Assembly (NCBI GenBank): GCA_023700255.1
Contig: JAJPRD010000012.1
Location: 1 to 38,908, forward strand
Direction of reading: 5' to 3'
From: Candidatus Thalassarchaeaceae archaeon
Lineage (GTDB): Archaea; Thermoplasmatota; Poseidoniia; Poseidoniales; Thalassarchaeaceae
Length of the DNA stretch: 38,908 nt
Made by a program: the position numbers and the translations under genes. Below are positions 27,517 through 38,908 of this stretch, piece by piece (the stretch's first letter is position 1; each line of letters begins with the position of its first letter). The notes beneath the pieces were generated by a model that was not told the origin of the DNA, ran no database searches, and saw only the letters and a program-made list of their open reading frames with translations.

Positions 27517-28788
27517 TCAAAGTACAGATTCATAAGGTGACTTATCAATCCCTGGTGGTAAACTTGCATCCATTCCTATCTTACTAGTCAATCCGTCTTC
27601 CGATCTACTAGGATCTAAACTAGATCCTTTTTGATTCGATAATATGATCGTGTCTTTATCTGGCTGCCATCTGGTCATGAGTGCCCATTCTACTCTTACT
27701 GGGTCTGATGTATCGATATCTTCGTCAACTACTATTACTTGTTTCATTGAAGGGTGCCCCTCTAACGCTGCATGTATTGCTCTAATCCCATCTCCTTCTT
27801 TTTGAGGTATGATTTGTACTACTGATGATAGCCATCCACAACCCCCATCTGTAAGGTATACGTCACTACATGGTACAACCTCTGAGACCGCATTCTTGAT
27901 TGTTGGAGCTCTTGGCATACCCATCAGAGTTCTATGTTCTACTTCTCCCGGTATTAATGCATGGAAAACTGGATTATTTCTATGATGTATTGCATTATAC
28001 TGAATCACATTTTCTTGTCTAACATCATCAACAGTTCCAGTGATGTCAACATAAGGTCCTTCGTCATCTCTTTCAAGAGTTATTTGAGCTTCCATTGCAT
28101 ACTCAGCATTAGCAGGTACCTGTATTCCATTAGGTAATTCTACTAAATTTAGCGGCTTTCCGTGTAATTTTTGATGTAATGCCGCTGCTACTGTAAGTTC
28201 GTCTAGATCTACTGTGAATGACATTGCTGCGGCCAATAGTACTACTGCGTCAGCACCATTCACAACAGCGATGTCTACATTTTTTCCTTGACTTGCAGCG
28301 AGATCAGTCATAGTTCTAAGATGTCTAGGGACAAACCTTGAGACAGTATGATTCCCATCTCTCAAGAATTGTCTATGGAATGACATGTTTCTGACTCCGT
28401 TATATTGTGCGATAATTACAGATGCAGATTGGTATCTACCTCTATCTTCTGGATAGTGCCATGGTATAGGTATTTTTTCAAGATTTACTTCAGTCATAGT
28501 GTTCTCCATAACAGGAGCTAAGTCCGAATCTATTATTTCTGGTTCACAGGGGTTATTCATTGCCCATGCTAAGATATCAATAAGTTCGCCTGGACTGACA
28601 TCGAATGTTTCACAGATTCTTTTCCTTGTAAGTACGTTTAACGCTGCAGATTGATTAGGTGCTTCCGTTAAGTTAGAAAAGATCAGAGGTTGATGATTTT
28701 GTTCTTTAGAACCATTCATTATTCCATGTATGACACTGGTTTCAGCATCTATTTTTTTCACATTAACAAGTAAATCTCGGAACGCCAT
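27517..28788 (-). CDS. ubiD: UbiD-family decarboxylase, candidate anhydromevalonate phosphate decarboxylase
   Basis: UbiD enzymes are prenylated-FMN (de)carboxylases. From ATG 28788 the protein is 423 residues, near the short archaeal form. In numbering from an upstream ATG (28818), the active-site block reads DEGPYVDITG, with Glu253 and Asp258 at the two acidic positions known from Fdc1/UbiD. A likely arginine partner lies in MSFHRQF (Arg149). I prefer 28788 because MAFRDLLVNVKK is the usual beginning. Many archaea use a UbiD-family protein to decarboxylate trans-anhydromevalonate 5-phosphate to isopentenyl phosphate. The window also encodes an IPP isomerase-GGPP synthase, which makes that role attractive but unproven. 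It leads a UbiD-TPR-Nudix operon. Family secure; substrate inferred. Confidence 0.88.
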   Translation of the reverse strand: MAFRDLLVNVKKIDAETSVIHGIMNGSKEQNHQPLIFSNLTEAPNQSAALNVLTRKRICETFDVSPGELIDILAWAMNNPCEPEIIDSDLAPVMENTMTEVNLEKIPIPWHYPEDRGRYQSASVIIAQYNGVRNMSFHRQFLRDGNHTVSRFVPRHLRTMTDLAASQGKNVDIAVVNGADAVVLLAAAMSFTVDLDELTVAAALHQKLHGKPLNLVELPNGIQVPANAEYAMEAQITLERDDEGPYVDITGTVDDVRQENVIQYNAIHHRNNPVFHALIPGEVEHRTLMGMPRAPTIKNAVSEVVPCSDVYLTDGGCGWLSSVVQIIPQKEGDGIRAIHAALEGHPSMKQVIVVDEDIDTSDPVRVEWALMTRWQPDKDTIILSNQKGSSLDPSRSEDGLTSKIGMDASLPPGIDKSPYESVL

Positions 28789-28880
28789 GTTAACAACCCA
28801 ATGCCATTTCGATTTCAATGTTAGCGATGGAAAATGCGTATTAGTGTCGAAGTTCCACCTACTGCTTCCCCGTCATGCTC

Positions 28881-32304: not shown

Positions 32305-32330
32305 ATTAGTTTAAACTAATATTTTTCTTT
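32305..32330 (+). terminator. Palindrome plus T-run after EF-2, likely terminator
   Basis: ATTAGTTTAAACTAAT (32305-32320) is a perfect 16-base palindrome starting 6 bases after the EF-2 stop, followed by ATTTTTCTTT. A short stem with a T-rich tail fits archaeal transcription termination. The palindrome also contains the stop codon of the convergent exporter gene. Confidence 0.45.
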
Positions 32331-35300
32331 CTATATACAACGCCTATTAGAGCGGGAGTTAGGATCATGCTTGCTATTAGTGATAATCCAATCATAATTG
32401 CACAGAATAATCCGAAAGTTGAGAAGAATCCCATACTTGATTGAGTGATGACTAGGAATCCACCAATATCTGATAAAGCAGAACCAAATAGTGCTAGTCC
32501 TGATGCACCTCCAACTATTTCTATAGCCTTGAGATTATCATGACCATTCTCTTGCTCTTCTCTGAATCTCTCTACAACGTGTATGACATAGTCAATTCCT
32601 ACACCTAATGACATTGCAGCAATAGCAACTGTCACCATATTCAAGCCATAACCTGCAACTTCAATCATACCATACAGCCATATGATTACTAAAAATATAG
32701 GAGTGGTTGTAACAATAGCTATTCCAAATCCAGAAATCCCCCATAATATACTTAATATTAGAGTTAATAATGCAAAAACCAAGGCAACCTTAGCACTCAC
32801 CAGTATGTACATAATTCCTCCCATAAAGCTCATTGCAGCAATGGTTTTAATTGAATATGATTTTTTATTTTTCTTAATTCGGTTGAATCTTTCTTCCATA
32901 GTTTCCTCATCCCTGAAACCCCACCATAATGTGATTGTACAGAATACTATTCCTAGTAAAAGAGTAGATTGCATCTCATTTTGCATTGAATCAGCTGCTA
33001 CAAATCTAATTACAGGATCTCCCGTTGGTATCGCCCAAGTCACTGGATATTCATCTGAAATAAATGCAGTTTCTATATTACTTCTTTCAACCAAATTCGA
33101 TGAAGATAAGTTTTGGAATGGGGCTAAATCATCTACAAGTTGCTCAAGTGCTGGACCTACCTTGGCAAATTGTTCAGCATTTGACAAACCAAATCTCATA
33201 GTCATTCTTACATATTTAGGAGTATTACCTGAAACATCTAGCCATGGTTTATCATAATCTATATCAGTTTCAGATTGAATATATTCTGAGGTTATTGATG
33301 GAGGTAATGCTGGATATCCTCCGCTAGCAGGGACACCTCTTGTTAATATGAAACCATAAAGGAATACTAGGCATTCTCTATCTTCGAGAATTGGTATTTT
33401 TCTCATTCCTACTCCTGGATATAGTAGACTCATAGTTTCACAATCTAATCCTCCACCTTCTTCTCCTGAGTCCCAACCTGCTTCCTCAAATGGTGTTATG
33501 TTTTCATACATTGATGCTTGTATAAACATTAAAATTTCATCTAAAGCAATTAATTCTACCTCTCCCGAAGGTGTTCTCGATATCTGATCAGGATCTATTT
33601 CAGGATTATGTGAATTCATATTATCTCTAGTTATACCAATTGCCTCAATGACCTTAGGATTAGCCATATCACCTTCAACAAGTATGTAACCAGGTTCTCC
33701 ATCAGTAAATCTTTCATTAACTAAGTATACTCCTTGTGCAAAATCTGATTCTTCATCCAAGAAATCATCTATCTGGAAATCTCCCTCTAATGATAACATT
33801 AGTGGAATTGCAGCAAAAGTTATTAAAATCGCTACAATTCCAACTGTAATACCTTTTTGGGTTGATAGAGAGGTGGTTTTAGCCAGCCACTCTTTTGGAA
33901 TAAGATGTAACTTTTCTTCTTTTTCTATTGTCAATTTACCTTTCTTTTCCAGCCATAAATCAGCATCCATTCGTAATAATGGTACCCAAAGTCCAGTTAG
34001 TAAGAAAGCAGCAGCAACACCTAATCCTGCCTCAATACCAAATGATCTTAATGCTGCAATATCTGATGTCAAATTTGCAAGGAATGCTACTATGGTTGTT
34101 GACGATGTAAGTAAAATCGCTCTACCTACTCGTGAAATTGATTCTTCAGCTGAATTTGTTATTGATTTCCCCTTCTTTCTCTCTTCTTTGTATCGGTGCA
34201 GCGCATGAAGGCTATCATCAATACCCAACGCTAGAATTAAGATAGGTAATAGATTCGAGAATTGGGATCTGAATATTATTTCAAAACCATATTTTTCACC
34301 AAACATCGACCCCCAACCAATTAATCCTTGCATCCATAGTAAGGACAAGAAAAGCCCTACACCAACTATCAGGACATCAGAAATTCTTCGTAGACTTAGC
34401 CATAGTAAAATAATGACAACTATAGCCATTAAGACGATAAGATATGCACTAGAGAGTAATTCTCTGTTTATTTCTACATTAGGTCCTTCGCCAAGAAGTA
34501 TAGATACCACTAAATCATCTTGTTCACGTAAATCTTCTTCAATAGACAAATACAACCACTCTACTGAACATAGTGGTTGATTGTTTTCTTCTTTTTCTTT
34601 GCATTCATTTATCGAGTATCTTATTGGATTAGTCGATAATTCAACTCCATCGAGATCATATCCCCATTCTGCACTTGCATTAATCCATGTAAAAGTCCAG
34701 CCTTCATTCTGCATTCTTTCCCTATCAAGATTCAGTATTAGCCAAGCTGATGATGCCGACCATCTTCCATTACCCCATGAATCAGTATTTATGGCGCCAC
34801 TTTCATTTAATACTCCTCCAATAGGACCAATTAGTGAACTACTATTATCCTGAATAAATGATCTATCAATAGAAAGGAATCTGAGAAATGCTCCTTTGCT
34901 ATTATTTGCCATTCTATGAGCTGCTAGATCGATGTGTTCTTGTGTCAAATTCACATCATCAAATGAAAGGCATTCTAGACCCCCACAATCATCCCAATTA
35001 GTAGGCGCATCTTCCATCCTCAGAGTTTCTGGATTAAACTGTGGTTTTGTTAGAAGAGATTGATTCGCCATAAATACTCTAAATTCAGTCGCTAAATCAA
35101 GAACTCCTATGATTGGCTGCCCTGAAATTTCAGAAGCAAAAGATAGGTAGTACTCTGATATTTCATGATTCTGTAAAAAGTTTGCTTTACTATCAATTTC
35201 TCTTAATACTGTTAAATTAAGTATGCCACCTAATGGTTCACTTTGACCCGTATTTATCCCTGAAAAGTCATCTACTTGATTAATCTCAGATGGAGAATCT

Positions 35301-35545
35301 CCAAAGTATTGAGAATCTCTAACAAATAGTCCGAATCCCCAAATATTTCCTGCTCCAGAAAATTCTTCCCTCATGACTTCTGCTGCTTCTAGCTCGGGGG
35401 ATTCTAAGTTATATGATTCGACATCAATGGGTGTTAGAGTAGCAGCGAAACCTGGAACCATTAATAATGATAAAATGAACACTGCAAGATGAACATTCTT
35501 TCTTTGAGGAATTAGAAAATTAGCGACTTTCTTGAAGTCCCTCAT
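32306..35545 (-). CDS. RND-superfamily (MMPL-type) membrane exporter
   Basis: The 1079-residue protein has the two-fold RND layout. The order is one N-terminal membrane helix (about 17-36), a large outer domain (about 40-360), a helix cluster (364-525), a second single helix (about 557-577), a second outer domain (to about 850) and a final helix cluster (about 865-1070). Each cluster has the proton-relay motif in its fourth helix: LALGIDDSLHALHRY (Asp443/444) and GVGIDYVIHVVERF (Asp985). MMPL-type members move lipids or other hydrophobic cargo out of the membrane. The first outer domain contains paired cysteines (CGGLEC; CKEK-LCS) that may be disulfides. No membrane-fusion partner is nearby, as expected in a single-membrane cell. 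Cargo unknown. Confidence 0.9.
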   Translation of the reverse strand: MRDFKKVANFLIPQRKNVHLAVFILSLLMVPGFAATLTPIDVESYNLESPELEAAEVMREEFSGAGNIWGFGLFVRDSQYFGDSPSEINQVDDFSGINTGQSEPLGGILNLTVLREIDSKANFLQNHEISEYYLSFASEISGQPIIGVLDLATEFRVFMANQSLLTKPQFNPETLRMEDAPTNWDDCGGLECLSFDDVNLTQEHIDLAAHRMANNSKGAFLRFLSIDRSFIQDNSSSLIGPIGGVLNESGAINTDSWGNGRWSASSAWLILNLDRERMQNEGWTFTWINASAEWGYDLDGVELSTNPIRYSINECKEKEENNQPLCSVEWLYLSIEEDLREQDDLVVSILLGEGPNVEINRELLSSAYLIVLMAIVVIILLWLSLRRISDVLIVGVGLFLSLLWMQGLIGWGSMFGEKYGFEIIFRSQFSNLLPILILALGIDDSLHALHRYKEERKKGKSITNSAEESISRVGRAILLTSSTTIVAFLANLTSDIAALRSFGIEAGLGVAAAFLLTGLWVPLLRMDADLWLEKKGKLTIEKEEKLHLIPKEWLAKTTSLSTQKGITVGIVAILITFAAIPLMLSLEGDFQIDDFLDEESDFAQGVYLVNERFTDGEPGYILVEGDMANPKVIEAIGITRDNMNSHNPEIDPDQISRTPSGEVELIALDEILMFIQASMYENITPFEEAGWDSGEEGGGLDCETMSLLYPGVGMRKIPILEDRECLVFLYGFILTRGVPASGGYPALPPSITSEYIQSETDIDYDKPWLDVSGNTPKYVRMTMRFGLSNAEQFAKVGPALEQLVDDLAPFQNLSSSNLVERSNIETAFISDEYPVTWAIPTGDPVIRFVAADSMQNEMQSTLLLGIVFCTITLWWGFRDEETMEERFNRIKKNKKSYSIKTIAAMSFMGGIMYILVSAKVALVFALLTLILSILWGISGFGIAIVTTTPIFLVIIWLYGMIEVAGYGLNMVTVAIAAMSLGVGIDYVIHVVERFREEQENGHDNLKAIEIVGGASGLALFGSALSDIGGFLVITQSSMGFFSTFGLFCAIMIGLSLIASMILTPALIGVVYRKKNISLN

Positions 35546-36655: not shown

Positions 36656-37258
36656 ATGGCTATTGGTTGGGCTTGCTTTCGTAACTATGTTGAACATGCT
36701 GAAGAAATAGGTGGAGATATTACTGATTATCCTCGCTTTTTTATTATGCCTAATTCATCTCATATACATTCAGATGCTGAAGGAAACAATGTAATTAAAT
36801 TAATGAATAATGATGAACATGTAGATCATGAAGTTGAGCTTGTAATAGAACTAGGTGATGATTTGTTGCCTAAATCTATGTGCGTTGGTTGCGATTCAAC
36901 TAACCGAACTAGGCAGGGACTTGCTAAGGAAAAAGGATGGCCTTGGACTGAAGGTAAGTCATTTCGAGGGTCTGCTGTTTTGGGAACGTGGGCTGATTGG
37001 GATCCAAATGTAGTGGAAATTTGTTTATCTGTGAATGGTGAAGTCAGACAACTGGCAAATACTAATCTTATGGTTCACAATGTAGATTCTTTGCTAAATC
37101 ATCTTAATCAGTGGTATGATCTATCACCTGGTGATTATATTTGGACTGGAACCCCGAAAGGCGTAGGAAGAATGTTCGTCGGCGATCAAGTGAACGCATG
37201 GATGAAAGATTCAGAAGGTAACGTTGTAAGTAGACTTAACGCTAATTGCATTAATTAA
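36656..37258 (+). CDS. FAH-family hydrolase or decarboxylase (fumarylacetoacetase fold)
   Basis: FAH-fold enzymes cleave or decarboxylate 2-oxo acids with a divalent metal. Examples are FAHD1-like acylpyruvases and oxaloacetate decarboxylases. From ATG 36656 the protein has 200 residues, a compact single-domain member. Metal ligands appear as Glu59 and Glu61 in HEVELVIELGDD and Asp80 in GCDSTNR. KSFRGSAVLG (101-110) and YIWTGTPKGVG (161-171) are family signatures. The frame is open far upstream (to 36518), but that part overlaps dnaJ and looks like out-of-frame coding, so it is rejected. Its end overlaps the convergent isoprenoid gene by 8 bases. Family secure; substrate unknown. Confidence 0.87.
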   Translation: MAIGWACFRNYVEHAEEIGGDITDYPRFFIMPNSSHIHSDAEGNNVIKLMNNDEHVDHEVELVIELGDDLLPKSMCVGCDSTNRTRQGLAKEKGWPWTEGKSFRGSAVLGTWADWDPNVVEICLSVNGEVRQLANTNLMVHNVDSLLNHLNQWYDLSPGDYIWTGTPKGVGRMFVGDQVNAWMKDSEGNVVSRLNANCIN

Positions 37259-38908
37259 TTCTAGTTAATTGCATGTCAGTTAATTGCCTTAAAACTTCTA
37301 ATGCTGGAGATTGTCCTAATCCATTTAGGATTTGATGTGCCTCTGAATGATATTTCATTGCTCTATCCATTGCATAATCAATTGAGCCATTATTTCTTAA
37401 TTCATCTACTGCTGCTTTAAGATCAACATCTGAGCATTCACCTTTTCCATATACTTTTGAGAATGCTGGTAGGTCATTACCACTATCTAGGGCATGGATA
37501 GCAATCAAGGTCTTCTTTCCTTGAACTACGTCTGATCCAGCAGGTTTACCTAATGTCTCAGTATCTCCAGTGATATCTATTAAATCATCCATTAACTGGA
37601 AACATAATCCTAACTTAAGACCCCATTCTGCCATATTTCCGACAGTTTTTGCATCTGCACCTGCTAGCTTCGCTCCAGTTTCTGCACAAGTTTCAAACAT
37701 TGCACTAGTTTTTCCAGCAATCATTGCAATATATTCATCTTCACTAACATAGTCTCTTTCTTCAAAGTCAAAGTCTTCTTGTTGACCTTCTGCTACTCTT
37801 CTTACCATCTCGCCAATAGACTGGACTAAGAATTTTAGATTATCAGGGGTTATGTCATCTGAATCAGCAAGGATCTCAAATCCTACAGCTAACATTGCAT
37901 CTCCAGCATTTATTGCTGTTGCATCATCATATTCGATATGTACAGCATTTAATCCTCTTCTTATCGGATCTTGATCCATTATATCATCATGAACTAATGT
38001 GAAATTATGGATTATTTCAATACTTGAACCAAGCGTATAATGGCCATCATGAGCCATTCCAGTAGCTTCACCAACTAGTCTAGGTAATATTGCTCTGTAT
38101 CTTTTTCCACCACCAGTGAAAAGATGAGTCATAGCACCATGTAAACGACTTTGTTTAATTTTCTTCATTGAATTCATAATTTCATTTTCAACAATGTCTT
38201 TATGTTTTCCAAGTGCTTTTTTCAGCTCTTGGCCTGATGGAGGTGTACCCATTATCGATAATCTCCCACAATCAATTATTTTATCATTGTTGGAATTAAC
38301 CAATGAATCCATGTCTGGATAGTGGGGTTCAATGAAATTTTGCCAAATCATCCTAAACCATGGAGCGACAATCATGTCCTTCCATTCATTCTTCCCTTCA
38401 ATCATTTCGATTATTTGCCCGTGGTCAAGCCATCTTGTTTCTTTAATTTCATTTTCATTAATTGATAATTCGACATTTGCTCTAACTATTAAGACGTGAT
38501 CAATCTCATGTTCAATCCATTCGTCATCCCATCTACAACTATATTCGAATCTTCCAATATGATTGTATTCCCATGATTCTGAAACCTCCATTGGGATTCC
38601 CAGTTCTTGAAACATTTTTCTTTTACTAGCGTGAATAACTCCTTCTATTGGGTCACCATTTTCGAATTCAATATCAAGAGGATGGCTACAACAACTATTT
38701 GCCCAAATACCTGGGAATGTGATTTTCTCCACTGCTCTTTGTTGCATAAGAAGTCTGTTTTTTGAATCAAAAATAAGAACGCTAAAGGCACGATGCCTGA
38801 TTCCTTCTCCTCTATGACAATCTATTTTACTAGCCGAACCTATGGCATTGTCATGTTCATCTACAACTAAGCACATTTCTTTCATCATTTCTAATTGTGA
38901 TGAATCTA
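37251..38908 (-). CDS. idi-ggps: Fusion: type 1 IPP isomerase plus geranylgeranyl diphosphate synthase (5' end cut by window)
   Basis: One continuous frame joins two isoprenoid enzymes. Numbered from ATG 38888, residues 1-195 are a Nudix-fold isopentenyl diphosphate isomerase. It has active-site Cys67 in NSCCSHP, and WIEHEIDH (124-131) holds the catalytic glutamate. After a short linker, residues about 220-545 form a polyprenyl synthase with DDIMD (301-305) and DDLID (434-438). Phe296, five residues before DDIMD, no insertion in that motif and Thr297 at -4 match archaeal-type (type I) C20 synthases, so GGPP is the expected product, precursor of archaeal lipids. No stop or clear start precedes 38888. 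The upstream codons DSSQLE align with eukaryotic Idi N-termini, so the true start lies beyond the window. Confidence 0.93.
   Translation of the reverse strand, partial: DSSQLEMMKEMCLVVDEHDNAIGSASKIDCHRGEGIRHRAFSVLIFDSKNRLLMQQRAVEKITFPGIWANSCCSHPLDIEFENGDPIEGVIHASKRKMFQELGIPMEVSESWEYNHIGRFEYSCRWDDEWIEHEIDHVLIVRANVELSINENEIKETRWLDHGQIIEMIEGKNEWKDMIVAPWFRMIWQNFIEPHYPDMDSLVNSNNDKIIDCGRLSIMGTPPSGQELKKALGKHKDIVENEIMNSMKKIKQSRLHGAMTHLFTGGGKRYRAILPRLVGEATGMAHDGHYTLGSSIEIIHNFTLVHDDIMDQDPIRRGLNAVHIEYDDATAINAGDAMLAVGFEILADSDDITPDNLKFLVQSIGEMVRRVAEGQQEDFDFEERDYVSEDEYIAMIAGKTSAMFETCAETGAKLAGADAKTVGNMAEWGLKLGLCFQLMDDLIDITGDTETLGKPAGSDVVQGKKTLIAIHALDSGNDLPAFSKVYGKGECSDVDLKAAVDELRNNGSIDYAMDRAMKYHSEAHQILNGLGQSPALEVLRQLTDMQLTRIN

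Follow-up and report, generated by a model that had tools for sequence, protein, structure and literature searches.

Fusions in which an IPP isomerase and a prenyl-chain enzyme from one pathway share a polypeptide are documented in diatoms (Phaeodactylum), where IDI is fused to squalene synthase (PMC6330534). The nearest solved enzymes to the locus described here are human IDI1 (2icj, 2dho and 2i6k) and the GGPP synthase of Geoglobus acetivorans (5jfq), both of which, unlike our protein, stand alone. For archaea, a 2012 review recorded IDI1 from Haloarchaea and Thaumarchaeota and traced it to bacterial donors (PMC3533463), and an archaeal modified mevalonate pathway has been described (PMC10040528). 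Published accounts rank Marine Group II first in abundance among the planktonic archaea of surface waters and note that it has no cultured representatives (PMC6461757, PMC6336850), and how it builds its membrane lipids is disputed (PMC6962369, PMC6461757).

One more fusion was obtained in our search of a plasmid collection. CP123774.1, recorded as Bacillus subtilis DK01, encodes a 543-aa protein annotated simply as idi (L186:5989-7620), in which Idi is followed by a polyprenyl synthetase in one frame, as in the archaeal protein. Unlike the latter, its isomerase is of bacterial type (163 bits with the E. coli-type entries); its synthase half is nearest to PDB 8f8f and 3lk5, and the gene adjoins UbiA and FAD-monooxygenase genes. 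It is independent of the archaeal fusion and probably part of a terpenoid cluster. Because its domains look actinobacterial, the assignment to Bacillus subtilis may be mistaken. This unrelated bacterial protein and the diatom IDI-squalene synthase, which differs in its partner enzyme and its eukaryotic host, are the nearest precedents.

The window analysed here, a stretch of 38,908 nucleotides, belongs to a Ca. Poseidoniales (Marine Group II) archaeon and carries at 37251-38908 (reverse strand) a gene in which a type 1 (Nudix) IPP isomerase precedes an archaeal short-chain prenyl synthase. We consider it, with a probability of roughly 0.9, a genuine bifunctional Marine Group II enzyme, predicted to make DMAPP and to act as a GGPP synthase, and born from the merger of an operon pair. 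An earlier report of an archaeal Idi-GGPPS fusion was not found in the literature searched, which included few subscription journals; each half is an ordinary enzyme, and the combination may be a new architecture for archaea. The fusion would mark the isoprenoid entry point of Marine Group II, with Idi2 gone and a eukaryote-type Idi1 joined to the maker of the C20 chain, and could be used as a naturally occurring component in terpenoid engineering, which as a rule brings in Idi and GGPPS as two separate enzymes.

A single frame conserved across most of the order

A preliminary description, made from the letters of the window, had placed both enzymes in one polypeptide with intact active sites. 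ORF translation revealed a single uninterrupted frame that is open to the window edge, ends with the stop codon at 37251-37253 and gives 545 aa when counted from the first in-window ATG at 38888. Pfam places NUDIX at residues 31-165 and polyprenyl_synt (PF00348, 208 bits) at residues 248-496, both above cut-off, and together with the TIGR02150 match reported below these results bear out the two-enzyme polypeptide. The isomerase domain comprises residues 1-195 (38304-38888, reverse strand, as are all parts of the gene) and the synthase domain residues 222-545 (37254-38225); the linker, residues 196-229 (38202-38303), runs from the last part of the Idi C-terminal tail through the join into the beginning of the synthase. 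The contig does not reach the true start of the gene. A second contig of this genome, C16, shares 55 exact bases with the window end (38854-38908), which makes the two contigs neighbours in the genome, and extends the frame by 22 codons to an ATG. The 22 additional N-terminal residues, in frame, are MRDMVDEYQNSSLSKLDSSQLE, giving 567 aa in all. The fusion gene of the nearest relative is also 567 aa long, with isopentenyl phosphate kinase (IPK) ahead of it.

The active-site motifs quoted in the preliminary description are all intact, the catalytic residues of both domains being invariant or almost so in the 90 rows of an alignment of fused proteins; two of these rows are the window's own protein and one is the bacterial plasmid protein. 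In the isomerase these are NSCCSHP (residues 64-70, 38679-38699), with Cys67 in 90/90 and His69 in 89/90, and WIEHEIDH (residues 124-131, 38496-38519), with Glu126 in 89/90 and Glu128 in 90/90. The first Asp-rich motif of the synthase, DDIMD (residues 301-305, 37974-37988), has invariant Asp (90/90), and the second is DDLID (residues 434-438, 37575-37589). Where measurable, dN/dS is about 0.02-0.09 in both domains, synonymous sites being near saturation, and to that extent both are under strong purifying selection.

It had also been proposed to look among related genomes for the same domain order and for a stop or frameshift in the linker. The Idi-Nudix domain followed by the polyprenyl synthetase was found as one frame across the join, free of stops, in 86 of 98 genomes from both families of the order, a set of uncultured assemblies that includes the window's own genome. 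The relatives that bear names are recorded as Ca. Thalassarchaeum, Ca. Thalassarchaeaceae and Marine Group II. Such a distribution bears on the possibility that the fusion is an artefact of assembly or a frameshift, for which one might cite that the gene reaches a contig end in this genome and that the pair is broken at a run of N in a relative (G358). Because the same single frame recurs in 86/98 genomes, among them a one-contig genome (G060) and many in which the locus lies deep inside long contigs, we reject this explanation and regard its probability as negligible. G358 was considered as a further case of split genes and dismissed, the break being that run of N.

Of the other genomes in the set, one (1/98) has the gene truncated where its contig stops and 11/98 are without the fusion. 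Real loss was considered for the latter and set aside: ten are likewise without a full-length match to IPK, and in the eleventh (G034) IPK sits at the edge of a contig, so that a missing stretch of assembly is likelier than gene loss. Phage records gave no full-length match to the fusion. One record labelled Pedosphaera, a bacterium (L081), carries the Marine Group II fusion and is probably mislabelled or a mixed bin.

The isomerase and synthase halves

The isomerase half passes the type 1 IPP isomerase model TIGR02150 with 143.3 bits (cut-off 105.8), and Cys67, His25, His32, His69, Glu126 and Glu128 are all present, each kept in 89-90 of the 90 aligned rows. We take their roles, namely catalytic Cys and Glu and a metal-binding His/Glu set, to be those of the E. 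coli and human IDI enzymes. The domain is accordingly named here a predicted IPP to DMAPP isomerase. Its match to human IDI1 reaches 159 bits, with 2i6k as fold match, versus at most 59 bits for bacterial IDI, and the Idi of the sister family leans further the same way (196 bits for human IDI1 versus 59 for bacterial), which by sequence puts the isomerase of the fusion in the eukaryote-type subfamily. The type 2 isomerase (Idi2, TIGR02151) was over cut-off in none of 60 Poseidoniales genomes; among 245 Thermoplasmatota genomes it was over cut-off in 145, none of them in the class Poseidoniia. Since Idi2 over cut-off is missing from the Poseidoniia tested, the fusion is the only isomerase candidate above cut-off, and the unusual use of Idi1 instead of Idi2, pointed out at the outset, is upheld. 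Several genomes of the window's family, including G049:C79, G297:C11, G018:C34, G015:C18 and G022:C14, encode short second Idi-like Nudix proteins, which score 57-78 bits, well under the Idi1 cut-off.

The synthase half belongs with the archaeal short-chain trans-prenyl diphosphate synthases, having PF00348 and both Asp-rich motifs, and the Geoglobus GGPP synthase is its best match both by sequence and by fold. The best NCBIfam models are archaeal IdsA and GGPP synthase, both under their equivalog cut-offs (IdsA_Meth 251.6 of 468; GGPP_syn 237.5 of 500), which places the domain in the same superfamily and outside the curated equivalogs. As these cut-offs are missed, the name of the product rests on the residue at position -5 of the first Asp-rich motif, the domain profiles being compatible also with a C15 or a mixed C15/C20 product. 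This residue, Phe296 (38001-38003), is Phe in 89/90 fused proteins. The Sulfolobus GGPP synthase has Phe at the same position, and its replacement lengthens the product (PMC4244643). The second prenyl synthase of the genome, on contig C63, has Ala at -5. Owing to Phe at -5, versus Ala in the second synthase, C20 is assigned to the fusion as its predicted product.

Another possibility is that FPP (C15), or a mixture of C15 and C20, is the main product of the domain and that the second synthase provides the C20 chain for lipids. Among the NCBIfam models the methanogen IdsA scores best, the Methanobacterium enzyme reportedly yields C15 as well as C20 (PMC4244643), and the second synthase adjoins a geranylgeranyl reductase-like gene, all of which would fit. 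However, the gate residue resembles that of the Sulfolobus GGPP synthase and the Ala of the second synthase predicts a longer product, and we regard the C15 alternative as rather improbable.

Split relatives and the origin of the fusion

All 7 genomes examined from the sister family within the class Poseidoniia, which is probably Marine Group III, carry idi and ggpps as two distinct neighbouring genes whose order is that of the fusion, and the same arrangement was observed in 5/5 genomes of one Poseidoniales genus (g20; L147, L148, L188, L189 and L191). These pairs resemble the fusion in enzymes, order and adjacency but yield two proteins, and only the gene ends overlap. Most of them share 4 bases between the idi stop and the ggpps start (ATGA, once TTGA); in a genus of the sister family (L151, L183) about ten bases are shared. 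The end of the Idi encoded by the split genes (e.g., VHHMGEVE or IHHMGEVE) aligns with the start of the fused linker (IHDMGDVS). The finding that would have contradicted the preliminary description, only separate genes in close relatives, was looked for and not obtained: close relatives carry the fusion, with separate overlapping genes retained in one genus of the order and in the sister family.

From these separate overlapping pairs in relatives we conclude that the fusion arose from an operon pair, and living relatives display the series from separate overlapping genes to the fused gene. A single-base indel at the overlap could have merged the frames. The lineage would have exchanged its type 2 isomerase for a eukaryote-type Idi1 whose gene lay immediately ahead of ggpps and overlapped it, the frames merging at a later stage. 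In the tree, the split genus g20 takes a basal position within the order, and its grouping with the second family has a support of 46/31. The fused proteins as one clade are not rejected (p-AU 0.455), and the tree is compatible with an ancestral split state in g20 as well as with re-splitting; the overlap that g20 has in common with the sister family favours the ancestral state.

Linker, neighbouring genes and possible coupling

The structure model of the two-domain protein has a mean pLDDT of 86.5, which falls below 50 at linker residues 214-217; two loops of the synthase, 306-309 and 442-447, are also of low confidence. In fold searches the halves matched human IDI1 (2i6k) and the archaeal GGPP synthase (5jfq), and among the best 50 matches none covers both domains. 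The length between the APWF and GGKR motifs varies from 79 to 100 residues, and replacement changes accumulate faster in the linker. The low confidence at 214-217 and the fast-changing linker fit a flexible tether and not a fixed intrachain tunnel.

IPK lies on contig C16 (L205/L214), 143 bases from the contig end, and with the two contigs joined its stop precedes the fusion start by 35 nt. The kinase scores 165 bits (cut-off 120). It is found just upstream of the idi/ggpps locus in three lineages, over the curated cut-off in all three, and IPK and the fusion probably form one operon. The two neighbouring genes would then encode the sequence from IP via IPP and DMAPP to GGPP. In the proposed mechanism, the N-terminal domain would isomerise part of the IPP pool to DMAPP by means of Cys67 and Glu126/Glu128, with the metal held by His25, His32 and His69, and the C-terminal domain would be primed with that DMAPP and extend it by three IPP, the resulting GGPP (C20) going into ether lipids. 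A kinetic gain might come from the fixed 1:1 supply and from local DMAPP.

Whether the two reactions are coupled is a separate matter. The synthase may receive its DMAPP locally from the isomerase, the two forming an IP-to-GGPP unit together with the adjacent IPK, so that the DMAPP:IPP ratio available for C20 chains would be set by this unit and not by a free pool of DMAPP, a proposal that we put forward tentatively and consider unlikely. If true, the fusion would be a natural channelled starter of prenyl chains, selected after the eukaryote-type Idi1 had displaced the archaeal Idi2. We incline instead to a variant of the bifunctional-enzyme reading from which channelling is left out, namely that two independent enzymes sit on a tether and the fusion gives only co-expression and equal amounts. 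The low-confidence, fast-changing linker is in line with this, and the overlapping gene ends of the split relatives suggest that translation was already coupled. Retention of the fusion in both families points the other way; it is weak evidence for coupling, because a stop in the join would also end translation of the synthase.

Further candidate genes of the supply route are present in the same genome, namely an AcnX-type protein (L217:1474-3219), which could be the phosphomevalonate dehydratase, and a UbiD-family decarboxylase within the window (27517-28818, reverse strand). AcnX, UbiD and IPK fit the archaeal modified mevalonate pathway feeding the fusion, with the steps of AcnX and UbiD assigned provisionally. 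The AcnX frame is about 580-600 aa long against 400 positions of the AcnX model; its C-terminal part resembles the small subunit, and it is possibly another fused enzyme of the pathway. The window also encodes, at 32306-35545 (reverse strand), a large RND/MMPL-type transporter that matches sterol-sensing and Patched domains as well as hopanoid and sterol transporter models.
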